Assembly (NCBI GenBank): GCA_903837075.1
Contig: CAILTI010000029.1
Span: 1 to 39,225 of the forward strand
Direction of reading: 5' to 3'
Source of the DNA: an uncultured bacterium
GTDB lineage: Bacteria; Patescibacteriota; Minisyncoccia; Phycocordibacterales; PALSA-1337
Length of the DNA: 39,225 nucleotides
Shown: piece after piece, positions 365-21,300 of the stretch
Layout: the number at the start of each line of letters is the position of its first letter
Numbering within the stretch: the first letter of the stretch is position 1
The notes under the pieces: generated by a model
The model's database searches: none
What the model saw: only the letters and a program-made list of their open reading frames with translations
Told to the model about the DNA's origin: nothing
Program-made: the position numbers and the translations under genes

Positions 365-997
365 ATGAATAGCACGTTCACGTTGAGTCAGGGTGCCGGT
401 CAGAAACTGGAATTCGCATTCCAACGAAATGATGGTAATACAGCCGATTTGGAGTGGTTATCGACGGGCGACAACCTCAGGTCAGTCATCCAACTCGCAC
501 GAGGCGAAGCGGATCTGGGTCTCAAGGCTAAACCCGCTCTTGAGCCCGAGCCGGCGATCGACTCGATCATCCGTGTGGATCGTTCGATCCGCCCCACTTA
601 TCCAGACTGGGTGAAGACAGTGATGCATCCTGAATTGGAATCCATTGGCCCAGCTGAGTACGATATCTCACGAGTCGAGCAGTGGCTCCATGACGGCCAG
701 AAGGATGGGAAATGTATCGAAGGTAGCAAGATCTATGCCCATCTCAAGGAGACCTACACACTCAAGACTTGTCTAGGACTGTGTGACCTGAAGGTAATCC
801 AGAATAAAGGCACCGCCTTTTTCCGGGAGCACTTCAAGTACAAAGCAGTCTTCGCGTGGAAAGGGGTCGTGCGGAGCCGCGATGGCGACCTCCGCGCCCC
901 GTACCTCTACGATCTCGGCGACGATGTCGCCCTGTCTTGGTTTTGGCTCGGCAACGGCTGGTTCGACAGTGACCCGGCCCTGCGTCTCGCAAGTTAG
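365..997 (+). CDS. DGR variable (target) protein, C-type-lectin-like C-terminus carrying the VR
   Basis: 210-aa ORF. Its last ~42 codons (VRSRDGDLRAPYLYDLGDDVALSWFWLGNGWFDSDPALRLAS) match the downstream TR except mostly at TR adenines. GAAAGGA RBS-like sequence upstream. Confidence 0.92.
   Translation: MNSTFTLSQGAGQKLEFAFQRNDGNTADLEWLSTGDNLRSVIQLARGEADLGLKAKPALEPEPAIDSIIRVDRSIRPTYPDWVKTVMHPELESIGPAEYDISRVEQWLHDGQKDGKCIEGSKIYAHLKETYTLKTCLGLCDLKVIQNKGTAFFREHFKYKAVFAWKGVVRSRDGDLRAPYLYDLGDDVALSWFWLGNGWFDSDPALRLAS
867..992 (+). repeat. DGR variable repeat (VR)
   Basis: Aligns without gaps to 1338-1463 (offset 471 = 157 codons): 105/126 identical, 18 of 21 mismatches at TR adenines. 21-bp identical GC-rich 3' end (972-992) is a likely IMH. 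Confidence 0.95.
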
Positions 998-1095
998 TAC
1001 TTTGGACTGAGTCACTTTGCACTTTCTGCACTTTGACCTTAGCTCTAAAAATCTGGTGGTATAACCACTCGGCATGGAATGAGCCGCTGACATTC

Positions 1096-1127
1096 AAAAC
1101 CCGAACGATGAGATCGTTCGGGTTTTC
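1096..1127. terminator. Bidirectional intrinsic terminator after the DGR target gene
   Basis: Perfect 14-bp stem AAAACCCGAACGAT-GAG-ATCGTTCGGGTTTT. Confidence 0.8.
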
Positions 1128-1337
1128 TAATATTGAAATATGCTATGATTATTTGCGGTAGTAGGTGAATACGCTGGCGGCCATGTGCTTCCGGCTACCG
1201 AATCCAGTATCCATAAACTGAGAGCGTCTGCGGCCAACCCAGTAGGTCATCCTACTGGATGAGACGCTAAATCAGATTCAATCCTGAGATCGCTAATGGC
1301 TTCGAGGGGTGGTGATATGGATGGTGTTTTGTATGTA

Positions 1338-1463
1338 TCGTGCGGAACCGCAATGGCAACCTCAACGCCCCGTACCTCTACGAGAACGGCGACAATGTCG
1401 TCCTGAACTGGAATTGGCTCGACAACGACTGGAACGACAATAACCCGGCCCTGCGTCTCGCAA
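1338..1463 (+). repeat. DGR template repeat (TR)
   Basis: Adenine-rich AAC/AAT template encoding, in the VR frame, VRNRNGNLNAPYLYENGDNVVLNWNWLDNDWNDNNPALRLAT. Lies between the target gene and the RT on the same strand. Confidence 0.95.
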
Positions 1464-1484
1464 CTCTCTTCATTTCTCTCCCTT

Positions 1485-1840
1485 TTACATTTTCGTAGAT
1501 TTGGGAGAGTTTTGTTTTGTAAGCTGTCCGCTCCAACCGCCGAGATTTTTGCCAATTTCCTCTAATATTAACGAAAGCGCAATGTATCGCTTGTCAATTA
1601 GCGACTTGGTTTCCCACAAGATCATGAGAAGTATTTTCAATGCATCTAGCTTCTTAATAGCCAACCTTACATACGGTTGCTTTTCGGTTGGACCGAGGAA
1701 GCTGGCTGCGGCGATTGCTTCAATGATTTCAACAAATAATGATTCAATCCTGAAACCGATTGAGTGTCTATGCAGTTTCGGTATGTCTTGATAATATGTG
1801 TACCAAAGCAAATATGCATCCTTCACTTTACTCAAAACAG
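1485..1840 (-). CDS. avd: Avd-like DGR accessory protein (four-helix bundle)
   Basis: Minus-strand ORF segment LPVLSKVKDAYLLWYTYYQDIPKLHRHSIGFRIESLFVEIIEAIAAASF...LDALKILLMILWETKSLIDKRYIALSLILEEIGKNLGGWSGQLTKQNSP has the look of bAvd/four-helix-bundle DGR accessory proteins. Start codon uncertain (TTG near LPVL is possible). The ORF-track extension to 2045 overlaps the RT and is probably not real. Confidence 0.8.
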
Positions 1841-1875
1841 GCAAAATTCGTGCGGGGGGGGGTCCGATTAATAGT

Positions 1876-2895
1876 ATGTCTAGAATCCAATTCAACCATA
1901 CATACGATAGTATCATTTCTGTAGAGAATCTGCTCGGAGCATGGAAAGATTTTTTGAAAGGCAAAAAGAAGAGGAAAGATGTGCAGGAATTTGAACGCGA
2001 TCTGATGGCGAACATCATTTCATTACATAACGATCTGCAATCCAAGACCTACAAACATTCAGTGTACGAATTTTTCCGAATATATGACCCAAAACTGAGA
2101 GACATTCATAAAGCTACTGTGCGAGACAGGGTATTGCACCGAGCTGTGTACAGGGAGTTGTACCGATTTTTTGACAAAACATTTATAGCGGATTCATTTT
2201 CATGCCGGATGAGAAAAGGAACACATAAAGCTATTGATAGATTCAGGTCATTTGCTCGCAAGGCATCTCGTAATCATACAATGACAGTATGGGTTCTAAA
2301 ATGTGATATACGAAAATTCTTTGCATCGATTGATCAGAATATTTTGAAGGAGATAGTCAAACTGTATGTATATGACAGATACATCCGTAAATTGCTCTTG
2401 GAAATCACTAATAGTTTTTCGTCTGGTGAAAAAGGTGTCGGTCTTCCACTAGGGAATCTAACGTCTCAACTGTTTGTGAACATTTATATGAATGAATTTG
2501 ACCAATATGTAAAGCATAAGATGAAAGCAAAACACTACATACGTTATGCAGATGATTTTGTCATCATTTCACGAGATAGAGAATGGCTTTGTAATCTCAT
2601 TCCTCAAATTGGTGACTTTCTCTGGTACAGATTGAAGTTACGACTTCATCCTGATAAGGTCTCCATAGGAACTATTGCCGCTGGTGTAGACTATCTTGGC
2701 TGGGTAAGTTTTCCTGATCACCGAATAGTTCGTACATTGACGAAAAAGAGAATGTTTAGAAGACTTAAGGATGTTGATGGTAAAGTTGAGACGGTCCGTT
2801 CGTATCTCGGATTGTTGAAACATGGAAATGCCAAGATGTTACGAGATAAGGTCGAATCAATGAAAACTACCCATAAACGCCGAGACACAGTATAA
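1876..2895 (+). CDS. DGR reverse transcriptase
   Basis: RT motifs LKCDIRKFFASID, GLPLGNLTSQLFVNIYMNEFD (DGR-type SQ instead of SP) and HYIRYADDFVIIS. ATG at 1876 preferred over the 1798 extension. Confidence 0.93.
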   Translation: MSRIQFNHTYDSIISVENLLGAWKDFLKGKKKRKDVQEFERDLMANIISLHNDLQSKTYKHSVYEFFRIYDPKLRDIHKATVRDRVLHRAVYRELYRFFDKTFIADSFSCRMRKGTHKAIDRFRSFARKASRNHTMTVWVLKCDIRKFFASIDQNILKEIVKLYVYDRYIRKLLLEITNSFSSGEKGVGLPLGNLTSQLFVNIYMNEFDQYVKHKMKAKHYIRYADDFVIISRDREWLCNLIPQIGDFLWYRLKLRLHPDKVSIGTIAAGVDYLGWVSFPDHRIVRTLTKKRMFRRLKDVDGKVETVRSYLGLLKHGNAKMLRDKVESMKTTHKRRDTV

Positions 2896-2904
2896 TTAAC
2901 CCCA

Positions 2905-4047
2905 ATGAAAACACTCAAAGATATCGAATATCTATCTGGCGTAAAGGTGCTCGTGCGCGTTGATTTCAATGTACCTATCAAGAACGGCCTAGTTGCTGAT
3001 GACTTTCGTTTGAAAGCGGCTTTGCCGACGATAGATTTCCTCACAGGTAAAGGTGCCAAGGTGATCTTGATGAGTCATCTAGAGTCTGCAGATGGTACCA
3101 ATCCATCCCTTGCGCCAGTTGCCGACAGACTGAAGAAACTCGGCCGAGAGGTAATATTCATCAAGGATTTCAATAAGGCGCATGAAGTTATCAATGAACA
3201 ATTGAAAGGTGGAGCATGCGCACTGCTAGAAAATTTGCGTTATTTTGATGGTGAAAAGAAAAACGATCCGAAGTTTGCAAGAGAGTTGTCTTCACTCGGA
3301 GATCTATATGTGAACGATGCTTTTTCCGCCTCACATAGAGAGCATGCGTCGATCGTCGGTGTGCCGAGATTGATGCCTAGTTACGCAGGATTACAGATGG
3401 AGAAGGAAGTCACGAGTCTGTCAAAGGCGTTCGATCCAGCACATCCATTCCTATTCATTTTGGGAGGGGCGAAATTCGGCACCAAATTGCCATTGGTAGA
3501 AAAGTTCATGAATATCGCCGATCAGATCTTTGTAGGAGGGGCATTGGCGAACGATCTATTGAAGGCGAAAGGATATAATGTTGGCATGTCGAAGGTTTCT
3601 GAGGAAAAGGATTTCCCAGTTCCCATGTCAGATCTCAGAACTATGGCACAAAATACGAAACTCATATTGCCTATAGATATCATAAACGAGCAGAAAGTCG
3701 CAAAGATGACAGATGCACTATCAGCGAGTGACAAGAATGTCGACATGGGACCGAAAACACTAGAAAATATCAAGGATATAGTTTCCAAGTCTAGATTCGT
3801 TCTCTGGAATGGGCCGATGGGAGTATATGAGTCTGGATTCAAGGAGGGAACTATAGAATTGGCGAAGATAATGAGTGAGGCAACAGCCAGAGGTGTCGAG
3901 ACGATAGTCGGCGGGGCAGATACATTGGCGGCGATCGCTGAGCTCGGCAGTCGAGAGACATTCTCTTTCATTTCTACTGGAGGTGGTGCGATGCTAGATT
4001 TCCTAGCAAAGGGAACTCTACCAGGAATCGAGGCGTTGAAGGATTAG
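2905..4047 (+). CDS. pgk: Phosphoglycerate kinase
   Basis: VLVRVDFNVPIKNG, ...GGAKFGTKLPLVEKF, NGPMGVYE, STGGGAMLDFL motifs. Confidence 0.97.
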   Translation: MKTLKDIEYLSGVKVLVRVDFNVPIKNGLVADDFRLKAALPTIDFLTGKGAKVILMSHLESADGTNPSLAPVADRLKKLGREVIFIKDFNKAHEVINEQLKGGACALLENLRYFDGEKKNDPKFARELSSLGDLYVNDAFSASHREHASIVGVPRLMPSYAGLQMEKEVTSLSKAFDPAHPFLFILGGAKFGTKLPLVEKFMNIADQIFVGGALANDLLKAKGYNVGMSKVSEEKDFPVPMSDLRTMAQNTKLILPIDIINEQKVAKMTDALSASDKNVDMGPKTLENIKDIVSKSRFVLWNGPMGVYESGFKEGTIELAKIMSEATARGVETIVGGADTLAAIAELGSRETFSFISTGGGAMLDFLAKGTLPGIEALKD

Positions 4048-4161
4048 TAATCAATATTGTAATAGGGATATTTCTGCCCGTAATAAGGTAGGGTGGGGAT
4101 AAAATGAGGTTATCCACAGATATGCTTGCTATTTTAAGTATATATATTGTATACTATACCC

Positions 4162-5283
4162 ATGAATTACAATAGGACAATAAATAAGATCCTAGTTGAA
4201 AATATAGGCAGCAAGCCGATATTGGTGCTTTATGGTGCACGACAAGTCGGTAAGACAACATTGATGAAATCAATAATGGAAAGGTTTACAAAAACCCTAT
4301 ATTTACAAGGAGATGATCCGAAGGATGCGTTACTGCTCGAACACAGATCATCAGATGAGTTGTCCAGTCTCGTATCTGGTTATGATCTCATAGTTATAGA
4401 TGAAGCTCAGAGGGTGAAGGATATAGGTACAACACTCAAGTTGATCGCTGATAATGTAAAAGATGTGAGAGTTATCGCATCGGGGTCGTCTTCATTTGAA
4501 CTAGCTAATAAATTGAGTGAGCCTCTGACGGGTAGGAATCGTAAATTTTACCTTTACCCATTATCTGTATCAGAATTGGTGGAGGCATATGGGAAAATAA
4601 ATACAGACAAGGAACTTGAGACATACATGACTTTTGGTATGTATCCAAAGATCGTTTCTGCGCAATCTAGAGAAGAAAAGGCGATCCTTATAAAAGAATT
4701 AGCAGGGGATTATCTATTCAAGGACTTGTTCATGTTTGGGGATATTCGAAACTCATTTGCTTTTGAGAAGTTGATCAAGCTTCTAGCGCTTCGCATAGGC
4801 AGTGAGATTTCGTACTCAGAATTGGCCAAAGAAGTGGGAATAAGTAGAGATACTGTTATGAATTATATCAAATTACTCGAACAGGCATTCATCATATTCC
4901 GATTGACACCACTATACACCAATAAGGCAAAGGAGATAAATAAAAGTCATAAGATTTACTTTTATGATATTGGTATAAGGAACGCTCTCATAAATAATAC
5001 CGATCCGATGGAATTACGCCCTGATAAAGGTGCGATTTTCGAAAACTTCTTTATTGCGGAAAAAGTGAAGGAAAGAGAATATTCCGGTCGATCAGGAGAA
5101 ATTCATTTTTGGAAGAGTCGAAGTGGAAGCGAAATTGATTTTGTTGAAGTCTCTGGCGGTATTATCAAGGCATATGAATGTAAATGGAAGGAGATCGCTA
5201 AAGCGCCGAAGGCGTGGCTAGAGACATATCCAAAGTCTAGTTTTGAATGTGTTACAACAGAAAATGTTGTTGACCATTTCTAG
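4162..5283 (+). CDS. AAA ATPase with DUF4143-type C-terminal domain
   Basis: Walker A GARQVGKTTL, Walker B LIVIDEAQ, C-terminal HFWKSRSGSEIDFVE. ATG at 4162 lies 6 nt after a TATACT -10. Confidence 0.88.
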   Translation: MNYNRTINKILVENIGSKPILVLYGARQVGKTTLMKSIMERFTKTLYLQGDDPKDALLLEHRSSDELSSLVSGYDLIVIDEAQRVKDIGTTLKLIADNVKDVRVIASGSSSFELANKLSEPLTGRNRKFYLYPLSVSELVEAYGKINTDKELETYMTFGMYPKIVSAQSREEKAILIKELAGDYLFKDLFMFGDIRNSFAFEKLIKLLALRIGSEISYSELAKEVGISRDTVMNYIKLLEQAFIIFRLTPLYTNKAKEINKSHKIYFYDIGIRNALINNTDPMELRPDKGAIFENFFIAEKVKEREYSGRSGEIHFWKSRSGSEIDFVEVSGGIIKAYECKWKEIAKAPKAWLETYPKSSFECVTTENVVDHF

Positions 5284-5372
5284 AACAGCGGCTCGCAGAG
5301 TGGGGGGTTTCTTATCCGTATGTTCAAATCGGTGAACACGATCGACAGTGAAATATTGAATTCACGGTCTTT

Positions 5373-5738
5373 CTAATTCTTCAGCGCATCGATCAACTTT
5401 TTCTTGTTTCCATCAAAATCCATCTTTTCTCCTTTTACTGTCGAATTTGGGAAGACCCAGATGTGCGCATGCGGCACCTCATCGCCGATGATCTTGCTCA
5501 TGACCCATTCGGTATCGAAAGCTTTTCTCTCTGCGAGGGCCAGTTTCCTAGCTACTTCGAAGTATTCCCCAATATTCGGTAAATCCCAGACCCATCTGAC
5601 ATGCGTTTTCGGAATAACTTGTACGTGTCCAGGTGTGTGAGGGTGAATGTCTAGAAATGCCAGGAAGTTGTCATCTTCATAGACGATATGGGCGGGAATC
5701 TCTCTGCTCACTATTTTACAAAATATGCATGATGTCAT
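5373..5738 (-). CDS. HIT family protein
   Basis: CIFCKIVSREIPAHIVYEDD...; C-terminal HAHIWVFP. Confidence 0.92.
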   Translation of the reverse strand: MTSCIFCKIVSREIPAHIVYEDDNFLAFLDIHPHTPGHVQVIPKTHVRWVWDLPNIGEYFEVARKLALAERKAFDTEWVMSKIIGDEVPHAHIWVFPNSTVKGEKMDFDGNKKKLIDALKN

Positions 5739-5837
5739 AGATGTATAATAACATAGATATTCGGCGCGTCGTGGTGGGATGGTGGTGGCTTAAAAAAGCC
5801 CACCAAATGAATGGCAGGCTGAACTAGTGTCTAGATA

Positions 5838-6524
5838 TTATACGGGATGACCGTAACGTTCCAGGAAGAAATCGAAGGTGGACTTCGGAGATGACAATTT
5901 CTTCAAAATATCTACGAATTTGCGGTCCGTAGGAACAGTAGTACGTGGGGAGTACTCTGTAACCTTGAAGTGGTTGACGGTGCTCTCGACCAAAATGAGA
6001 TTCGATGCCATCACCTGTGCGATTGTTGGCGCGTTGAATGGTTCATACAGTGTTGCGAGAGCGAGGGTTGGACGATCGCTATATGGACTTTTATCACTGT
6101 TCTTCTGTTCAGGCTCGTTTTCTTTGTATAGATCCAGAACATATACTCGTTGGTCGCTAGGAACCAAGACTTGTTCGAAGATCGTATGAGTGTCTAGTAT
6201 GCGGGTAGAGTTTATGCTTTCGCTCCACTGGACTCGCTTCGGAGCAAAGCCGCATATGCCGGTGCCGTCAGAGAACTGAACGCAATGATCGTCGTTGGTA
6301 AATAACTTCTCTACAAACATACGAAATCCTTGGTCATGTTTCAACTGATCACGCACGTTATCTTGAGCTACAGACAAGAGGTTTGTGAGCCATCTCATTT
6401 GTTCTTTTCCCAACTTTTGTTTGGCGAGTAGGTCTCGCTTGGCTATTTGCTCTGCTAATGTTTTGGCCCGATCTCGAGCTAACTCGAATTGACGGGCTCT
6501 TTCGATGAAACTTCCTTTTTTCAT
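5838..6524 (-). CDS. Hypothetical protein (228 aa)
   Basis: Long ORF with coding-like composition; no family recognised. Confidence 0.6.
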   Translation of the reverse strand: MKKGSFIERARQFELARDRAKTLAEQIAKRDLLAKQKLGKEQMRWLTNLLSVAQDNVRDQLKHDQGFRMFVEKLFTNDDHCVQFSDGTGICGFAPKRVQWSESINSTRILDTHTIFEQVLVPSDQRVYVLDLYKENEPEQKNSDKSPYSDRPTLALATLYEPFNAPTIAQVMASNLILVESTVNHFKVTEYSPRTTVPTDRKFVDILKKLSSPKSTFDFFLERYGHPV

Positions 6525-20285: not shown

Positions 20286-21300
20286 TAATGGTAATTTAAG
20301 CAGTCTGTTTTCGTAGAATCTCTGTAGCAATTTTTCTGATTCTTTCTTTGTTTTTTCCTCTGTGCGCGCTCAAAAGATTTTTAATTCGACTCCAATAACC
20401 ATCCAACGAATTGGTTGTGTTCGGAATTTTTAGATCTGGGTATTTTTGATATGTATATAGATATGGGAGATTTCTTTTTAGACTGTTGTAAGCAGACCTC
20501 ACCCTCCTGTGCGTATATCTCCATCGTTTTGTACCGTTCGTGTAGGTGTGTTCATTAATGAAGTCACCATACTTTTTGAACCACTCTGTGAGGTCACTGG
20601 TTAAGATGGCCTCTGTCTTTTTTGATATTGAAAATCCAATTGCGAGAAGCGTTTGACCAGCTTCGGTCTCCGGTCTAAGTGTCAGTTTTCGTCTGACGAT
20701 TTGTAATTGATGGAACTGACAAATCTGTACTGGAATACCCTCAAAAACCCTTGGTATGCCTGTTCTGCCGTCTAAAATGACCGCCTTGAGGTTGAACCCT
20801 CTCGACTCTAGATTTGCTTTGAGTGTGGCGTAGCCTTCCTTGGTTTCCGATTCGATCCATGCCCAGCCGAGATTCAATTTGAGATTGGGTTCTCGAGCAT
20901 TCAAAAGGACATCGTCTCCAATATGAGTGGCGTCAAAAATACAGACCACGCACTGTGGTGGAATGTATACACTGGGCCGAGTCTCTGCTCGGTCAAGAAT
21001 TGTTCGTATAGTCTTTTCGCTTTTTTCGTAGGTTTTCGTCAGATCATTTACGGTCTGTCTTTTCCATACATGGTCCTTCCACATCTGCTGATCAGACCTA
21101 TCTGGTCTTCTGTCATTTTGAAATTGTTTACCACAATCAGGACATCTGTAATGTTGTACTCCTCGTCGCTTTCCATTCTTTTTAACGGCGGTTTTACCGC
21201 ATTCTGGACACTTTTTTTACGCATGGTATGTAGTTAATTAAGTTGTTACCCATACAAGGTAACACAGAACAGTCAAAACAGACTGCTTAAATTACCATTA
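20286..21300 (-). mobile_element. Insertion sequence bounded by perfect 26-bp TIRs
   Basis: TAATGGTAATTTAAGCAGTCTGTTTT at 20286-20311 and its exact reverse complement at 21275-21300; transposase between them. No clear target-site duplication. Confidence 0.9.
20296..21224 (-). CDS. Transposase (IS256-like, Zn-ribbon variant; frame disrupted at an A7 run)
   Basis: 262-aa ORF with IPNTTNSLDGYWSRIKNLLSAHRGKNKERIRKI. Upstream in the same frame KCPECGKTAVKKNGKRRGVQHYRCPDCGKQF Zn-ribbon, joined to ATG(21224) only by a -1 shift in AAAAAAA. Confidence 0.75.

Follow-up and report, generated by a model that had tools for sequence, protein, structure and literature searches.

Proposed stochastic switching of diversity-generating retroelements in Patescibacteria by a phase-variable avd gene, with a template region predicted to be carried on its own structured RNA

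We propose, with a probability of about 80%, that diversity-generating retroelements (DGRs) of Patescibacteria are stochastically switched on and off by phase variation of the accessory gene avd and that their template region (TR) is carried on a structured RNA of its own. According to this explanation, the reverse transcriptase (RT) together with Avd would produce from the TR RNA a cDNA with errors at adenines, which would replace the variable region (VR) located 3´ in the target gene, as in known DGRs. The avd gene is divergent from the RT gene, and a simple repeat, in most cases poly-C, separates its start codon from the conserved core. The length of this repeat would be altered by slipped-strand mispairing when the DNA is replicated, avd would be translated in about one phase of three, and mutagenesis would be turned on or off in a stochastic and reversible manner. 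The TR would reside on a short structured RNA, separate from the avd and RT transcripts.

The window, by which we mean the whole stretch of DNA analysed (39,225 nt), has the DGR at its start. A preliminary description of this DNA had reported a target gene with a 3´ VR, a TR, an Avd-like gene and a DGR-type RT, and all four parts (target, TR/VR, avd, RT) were found at or near the places given there. Two unusual features, the repeat within avd and the predicted structured RNA that includes the TR, do not appear in that description. The target gene (365-997, plus strand; 210 aa), recognised by its open reading frame and the TR/VR alignment, bears in its C-terminal part the VR (867-992, plus strand), which ends 3 nt before the stop codon. 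The TR (1338-1463, plus strand) aligns with the VR without gaps over 126 nt (83% identity), and 18 of the 21 mismatches fall on TR adenines (A>G 9, A>T 6, A>C 3), the other three being 1384 G>T, 1401 T>C and 1408 C>T. With 33 adenines among the 126 TR positions, the probability of finding at least 18 of 21 differences at A is 1.9e-8. The RT (1876-2895, plus strand; 339 aa; PF00078, E=1.4e-21) contains the motifs GLPLGNLTSQ and YADD. Its closest solved structures are the 8ub7-8ube entries (8ub7, E=6e-41), which we take to be the RT of the BPP-1 DGR (bRT), whereas RTs of group II introns reach 1.7e-13; judged by motifs and best solved relatives, the protein is thus closest to the DGR enzyme and not to introns or retrons, in agreement with the class first assigned to it. 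Genes 3´ of the DGR encode phosphoglycerate kinase (assigned from sequence) and, further on, ribosomal proteins and housekeeping functions; the window is therefore chromosomal, and the locus is confirmed as a real DGR on a chromosome of Patescibacteria (CPR).

We compared this locus with about 200 relatives, arranged in three locus sets. A DGR-type RT is encoded in 159 of 397 genomes of the same order and in 117 of 380 genomes of a phylum sample, the named hosts being Kaiser-, Nomura-, Adler-, Zambryski-, Wolfe-, Taylor-, Vogel-, Andersen-, Kerfeld-, Moran- and Peregrinibacteria. Adenine-biased TR/VR pairs are present at 76 of 81 loci in the first set, and the 72 usable loci contain 1188 mismatches at A against 34 at other bases, so the TR-VR relationship recurs throughout the relatives. 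Occurrence and enrichment of DGRs in CPR are already known (PMC8144416). In their features, the elements studied here resemble the CPR DGRs of clade 2 of Roux et al. 2021 as portrayed in the main text of that study (PMC8144416), sharing host group, cellular location and targets without recognisable domains; the same main text mentions neither avd nor its strand.

The genome from which the window comes (730 kb, 60 contigs) contains a second complete DGR on contig C19 (locus L004, 4054-6012), laid out as in the window. It has an unrelated target of 251 aa, a G10 tract and 21 TR/VR mismatches, all of them at adenines. A third RT match, on contig C32, was rejected as a DGR, since it looks like a eukaryotic Ty3/gypsy-type ORF. 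This ORF (L005, 1-4287; 1428 aa) has, by reading, RT, integrase-like and chromodomain-like parts and is probably a eukaryotic contamination of the assembly. Two unusual arrangements were encountered in other genomes. In L104 (genome G054), a single TR (4737-4864) appears to feed two VRs (1678-1805 and 4274-4401), with 12 and 24 adenine mismatches, located in two similar target regions. In L064 (genome G150; 2131-6475), the intact DGR has a second copy in tandem beside it, which includes a separate avd, a separate G8 tract and a partial RT.

The avd gene of the window, an accessory gene that most DGRs possess, lies on the minus strand (1485-1899; core 1521-1829, stop codon 1485-1487). It matches the bAvd profile PF22296 (E=1.7e-7) and NF033474 DivGenRetAVD (E=6.6e-14), both below the curated cutoffs, as well as PHROG 3206 Avd (E=8e-12). 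Its proposed 5´ end overlaps that of the RT gene head to head, and in relatives the avd 3´ end often runs into the T-run following the TR hairpin. Wherever avd is detectable (80, 58 and 86 relatives in the three locus sets), it is antisense to RT. The order target+, TR+, avd-, RT+, which had been put forward as a notable layout of this particular locus, was therefore read correctly but is the standard of the lineage. Among three phage DGR regions used for control, ACA1 carries an avd annotated in the same orientation as RT, and VP58.5 has a gene in the equivalent place. The BPP-1 DGR (bRT, Avd, TR, and VR in mtd; PMC12875486, PMC3240598) shares with the present elements the RT type, Avd, adenine-specific TR-to-VR differences, the position of the VR at the target 3´ end and near-identical, IMH-like 3´ ends of TR and VR. 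In BPP-1, however, avd, TR and brt form one operon, with the avd 3´ end 5´ of the TR and a folded spacer 3´ of it (PMC12875486), whereas here avd is antisense and has a repeat, a large folded domain is predicted 5´ of the TR, and a short hairpin with a T-run is found 3´ of it.

Between the avd start and core, the window contains a G9 tract (1854-1862; C9 in the avd sense), which we propose to be a phase-variation tract. A simple sequence repeat within the 5´ codons of avd is present at 185 of 199 unique avd/RT junctions (duplicates removed), compared with 53 of 11,245 control windows (0.5%). One of the 14 junctions scored as repeat-less, L222, has a (GA) repeat just beyond the searched stretch, which leaves 13. 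A repeat of this junction type was found in none of the three phage DGR control regions. Most of the repeats are G/C7-14, and others are (GT)16, (CT)12, (GA)n, (CA)n, (CTGA)8 and (TTGG)10, these lengths being taken from assemblies, which may contain errors. The repeat unit is 1, 2 or 4 nt long and never a multiple of three (no 3 or 6), and the encoded peptides consist of repeated Pro, Ser-Leu or Thr-His. The unit type was switched at least 12 times on the RT tree, with 6 of the switches forced by well-supported branches; because of these changes, it is evidently repetitiveness, and not a sequence motif or peptide, that is kept. Throughout the 730-kb genome, G/C runs of at least 9 are confined to three places, namely the two DGRs and one intergenic site. 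Simple repeats do arise spontaneously, and those in avd might be neutral, functionless debris, for example of a local mutation bias, yet their excess over the control windows, at one fixed place and across the divergence of several CPR groups, makes such an origin exceedingly improbable. In two assemblies (L078 and L255), gaps (N) lie exactly within the avd repeat, as would be expected if the sample had a mixed tract length.

Reading frames through the repeat bear on how it would act. From the core into the repeat, the avd frame is free of stops throughout the first set (79 of 79 loci), and at 32 of these loci no avd start codon is present on the core side of the repeat. An upstream ATG open to the repeat is present at 184 of the 185 repeat loci, compared with 42% in shuffles. 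Its phase relative to avd takes all three values (49/79/56), a distribution departing from uniform (p=0.018), and on the tree of 184 loci it changed 48 times or more. The upstream ATG is often antisense to a conserved RT His codon; the candidate start codon is explained in part by antisense RT coding, and the avd starts are predicted ones. In all 13 repeat-less loci avd is in frame from its ATG, as against 56 of the 185 repeat loci (30%; p=5e-7). On the tree, these 13 loci trace back to at least 7 separate changes, and a phylogenetically paired test of repeat loss against frame gave 5 supported pairs and none contradicting, too few for significance. Diversity of the VR showed no difference between in-frame and out-of-frame loci. 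We also considered that RT rather than avd is read through the repeat and rejected this for most loci, the RT frame being stopped in 26 of 79 and the RT ATG lying mostly after the repeat; in the second DGR of the window's genome (L004), exceptionally, the RT frame does run through it.

The repeat is situated between divergent start regions 30-110 nt apart, where promoters must be, and could therefore be phase-variable through transcription, its length determining how far apart the divergent promoters of avd and RT lie and not the avd frame. We regard this as unlikely in view of the missing 3n units, of repeat-less loci that are without exception in frame, and of avd coding that stays open from core into repeat at 79 of 79 loci. 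A very improbable alternative is that the C-run gives rise to transcriptional slippage or to programmed ribosomal frameshifting, by which a constant low amount of Avd would be made without any switch in DNA. Long homopolymers can, as a matter of general knowledge, slip in transcription, and C runs are present in most loci, but replacements involving (CT)n, (CA)n and tetranucleotides took place at least 12 times, and the frame differs even between loci that are 91% identical. The latter are the sister loci L062 and L249, which, at this identity over 2.5 kb, carry (TTGG)10 and (TTGA)7, respectively, a difference of 16 nt, and are in different phases. Another couple of loci, L216 and L243, was set aside as a one-G switch pair, since L243 is a deleted remnant. 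This decayed DGR of Nomurabacteria has, relative to L216, a deletion of about 580 nt that takes the TR and most of avd, and its RT is broken.

These comparisons favour phase variation of the avd reading frame itself, and we infer that the tract slips within a clone and that Avd is lost in out-of-frame phases. As Avd is required for activity of the BPP-1 DGR (PMC12875486), phase variation of Avd would switch mutagenesis, provided that mutagenesis is lost without Avd here as in the BPP-1 work (PMC12875486). In the window, the likely start of avd is the ATG at 1899-1897 (minus strand). With the C9 tract, this ATG and the core are in different frames, and by direct count they would share one at C8 or C11. 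An alternative ATG at 1916-1914 is in frame at C9, and either of the two may be used. In the second DGR, avd (C10) is out of frame from the nearest ATG.

Contingency genes of Haemophilus, Neisseria and Campylobacter (PMC2651432, PMC6321876) likewise have a homo-, di- or tetranucleotide repeat in their 5´ coding part, with a unit that is not a multiple of three. Features of such genes seen in our loci are a non-3n repeat in the 5´ coding frame and variation of its length and phase between close relatives. While those genes mostly specify surface structures or the enzymes that modify them, the gene in question here belongs to a mutation machine, whose accessory protein it encodes. If a DGR were active all the time, every good variant that it found would be lost again, a problem that a switch would solve. 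If our explanation is true, the avd repeat slips fast and randomly links and unlinks the mutator, a minority of cells diversifying the target and the majority keeping the current variant; one mutator would sit atop another, with random switching of a targeted mutation machine. To our knowledge, control of DGRs by cells is largely unknown, especially in uncultured CPR. We consider it quite probable that, in most DGR-bearing Patescibacteria, hypermutation is a contingency function and the template is a structured RNA that is transcribed on its own and has no earlier description.

Comparison with relatives lets us infer that the TR forms part of a discrete structured RNA with its own promoter, a folded leader of about 200 nt, and a 3´ hairpin with a T-run; its ends and its independence from the avd and RT transcripts are predicted in the same way. 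Downstream of the target gene, after an inverted repeat with 14-bp arms and a 3-nt loop (1096-1126, read from sequence) that appears terminator-like, the window has a putative extended -10 promoter element (TGCTATGAT, 1141-1149, plus strand). The pattern TGnTAnnnT occurs at this position in 28 of 36 loci, compared with 7% in shuffles; a generic promoter scan of the region gave no sigma-70 sites, and the extended -10 element became visible only by comparison. The leader of about 200 nt between target and TR is common to the relatives. Of its 51 pairs in total, 40 show double changes: 21 of 29 predicted pairs in the 5´ domain and 19 of 22 in a three-way junction adjacent to the TR, the latter pairs being formed to 96% in 35 sequences. 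Covariation of the junction is 0.715; shuffles gave 0.299, and sliding gave no more than 0.22. A covariance model of the TR-adjacent domain (R1) matches 60 of 67 loci outside its building set. Directly 3´ of the TR, the window has a hairpin (1476-1509) and T-run (TTTTGTTTTG), together 1476-1519 on the plus strand and overlapping the antisense avd 3´ end. The hairpin (z = -4.4) is conserved and covarying in relatives and is possibly terminator-like or a 3´ element of the template RNA. In the 5´ domain of the leader, two hairpins (e.g. L046, 4303-4419) have near-identical loops (GATTACGGTTT / GGTTACGGCTT), suggesting two copies of one candidate binding site.

An Rfam search of the window and its relatives gave no family at threshold at the locus. 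The RT-7 RNA (RF03028) reached its gathering score of 116.8 bits in none of 247 genomes, and the window did not match it. Sub-threshold matches were obtained for the leaders of L057 and L107 (25-27 bits, E 0.02-0.06) and for G133 (44 bits); in L057 and L107 the partial match lies inside the leader, and R1 represents the TR-adjacent domain beside it. In the literature searched, of which our coverage was partial, we found no description of a phase-variable avd or of such a template RNA; DGRs in CPR are known, and these two traits are apparently new. By means of the conserved template RNA, this cellular group of DGRs could be searched for, classified and reconstituted.

The window copy itself differs from most relatives. 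Its TR-RNA leader (1160-1337, plus strand), as aligned with relatives and scored with R1, is truncated and degenerate, about 50 nt shorter than the consensus, and retains a remnant of the three-way junction (1242-1332, plus strand). R1 scores it at 19.9 bits, the closing helix being broken by mismatches, versus 47-112 bits in 60 relatives. A count of three TR/VR differences outside adenines is shared by just 4 of the 72 loci, the window included. The DGR had been called complete, and its four parts are indeed present; completeness is nevertheless doubtful because the leader of the template RNA is degenerate. With a damaged leader, the copy may be inactive in either avd phase. It may be silent, perhaps having stopped recently. 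That it is a fully active DGR, the short leader being tolerated or an assembly error, is a somewhat less probable but still substantial possibility: RT and the avd core are intact, the TR, VR and 3´ hairpin are good, and the 18 adenine-directed differences attest to past activity, while the low leader score, the broken closing helix and the rare non-A differences speak against it.

Homologues of the window's target protein are exclusively other DGR targets, and it contains no known domain. Its AlphaFold (AF2) model has a mean pLDDT of 86, rising to about 95 from residue 70 onward, the C-terminal domain being modelled confidently. A C-type-lectin fold is usual for DGR variable domains and is thus expected in this protein; a Foldseek search of the model against PDB and viral models returned no significant match, with weak C-type lectin hits among noise. 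Two further elements of the window were observed: a long imperfect inverted repeat 5´ of the target gene (9-79; CCAATATACCAGC...GCTGGTATATTGG) and, far downstream on the minus strand (20296-21084), an ORF that reads like a transposase remnant.
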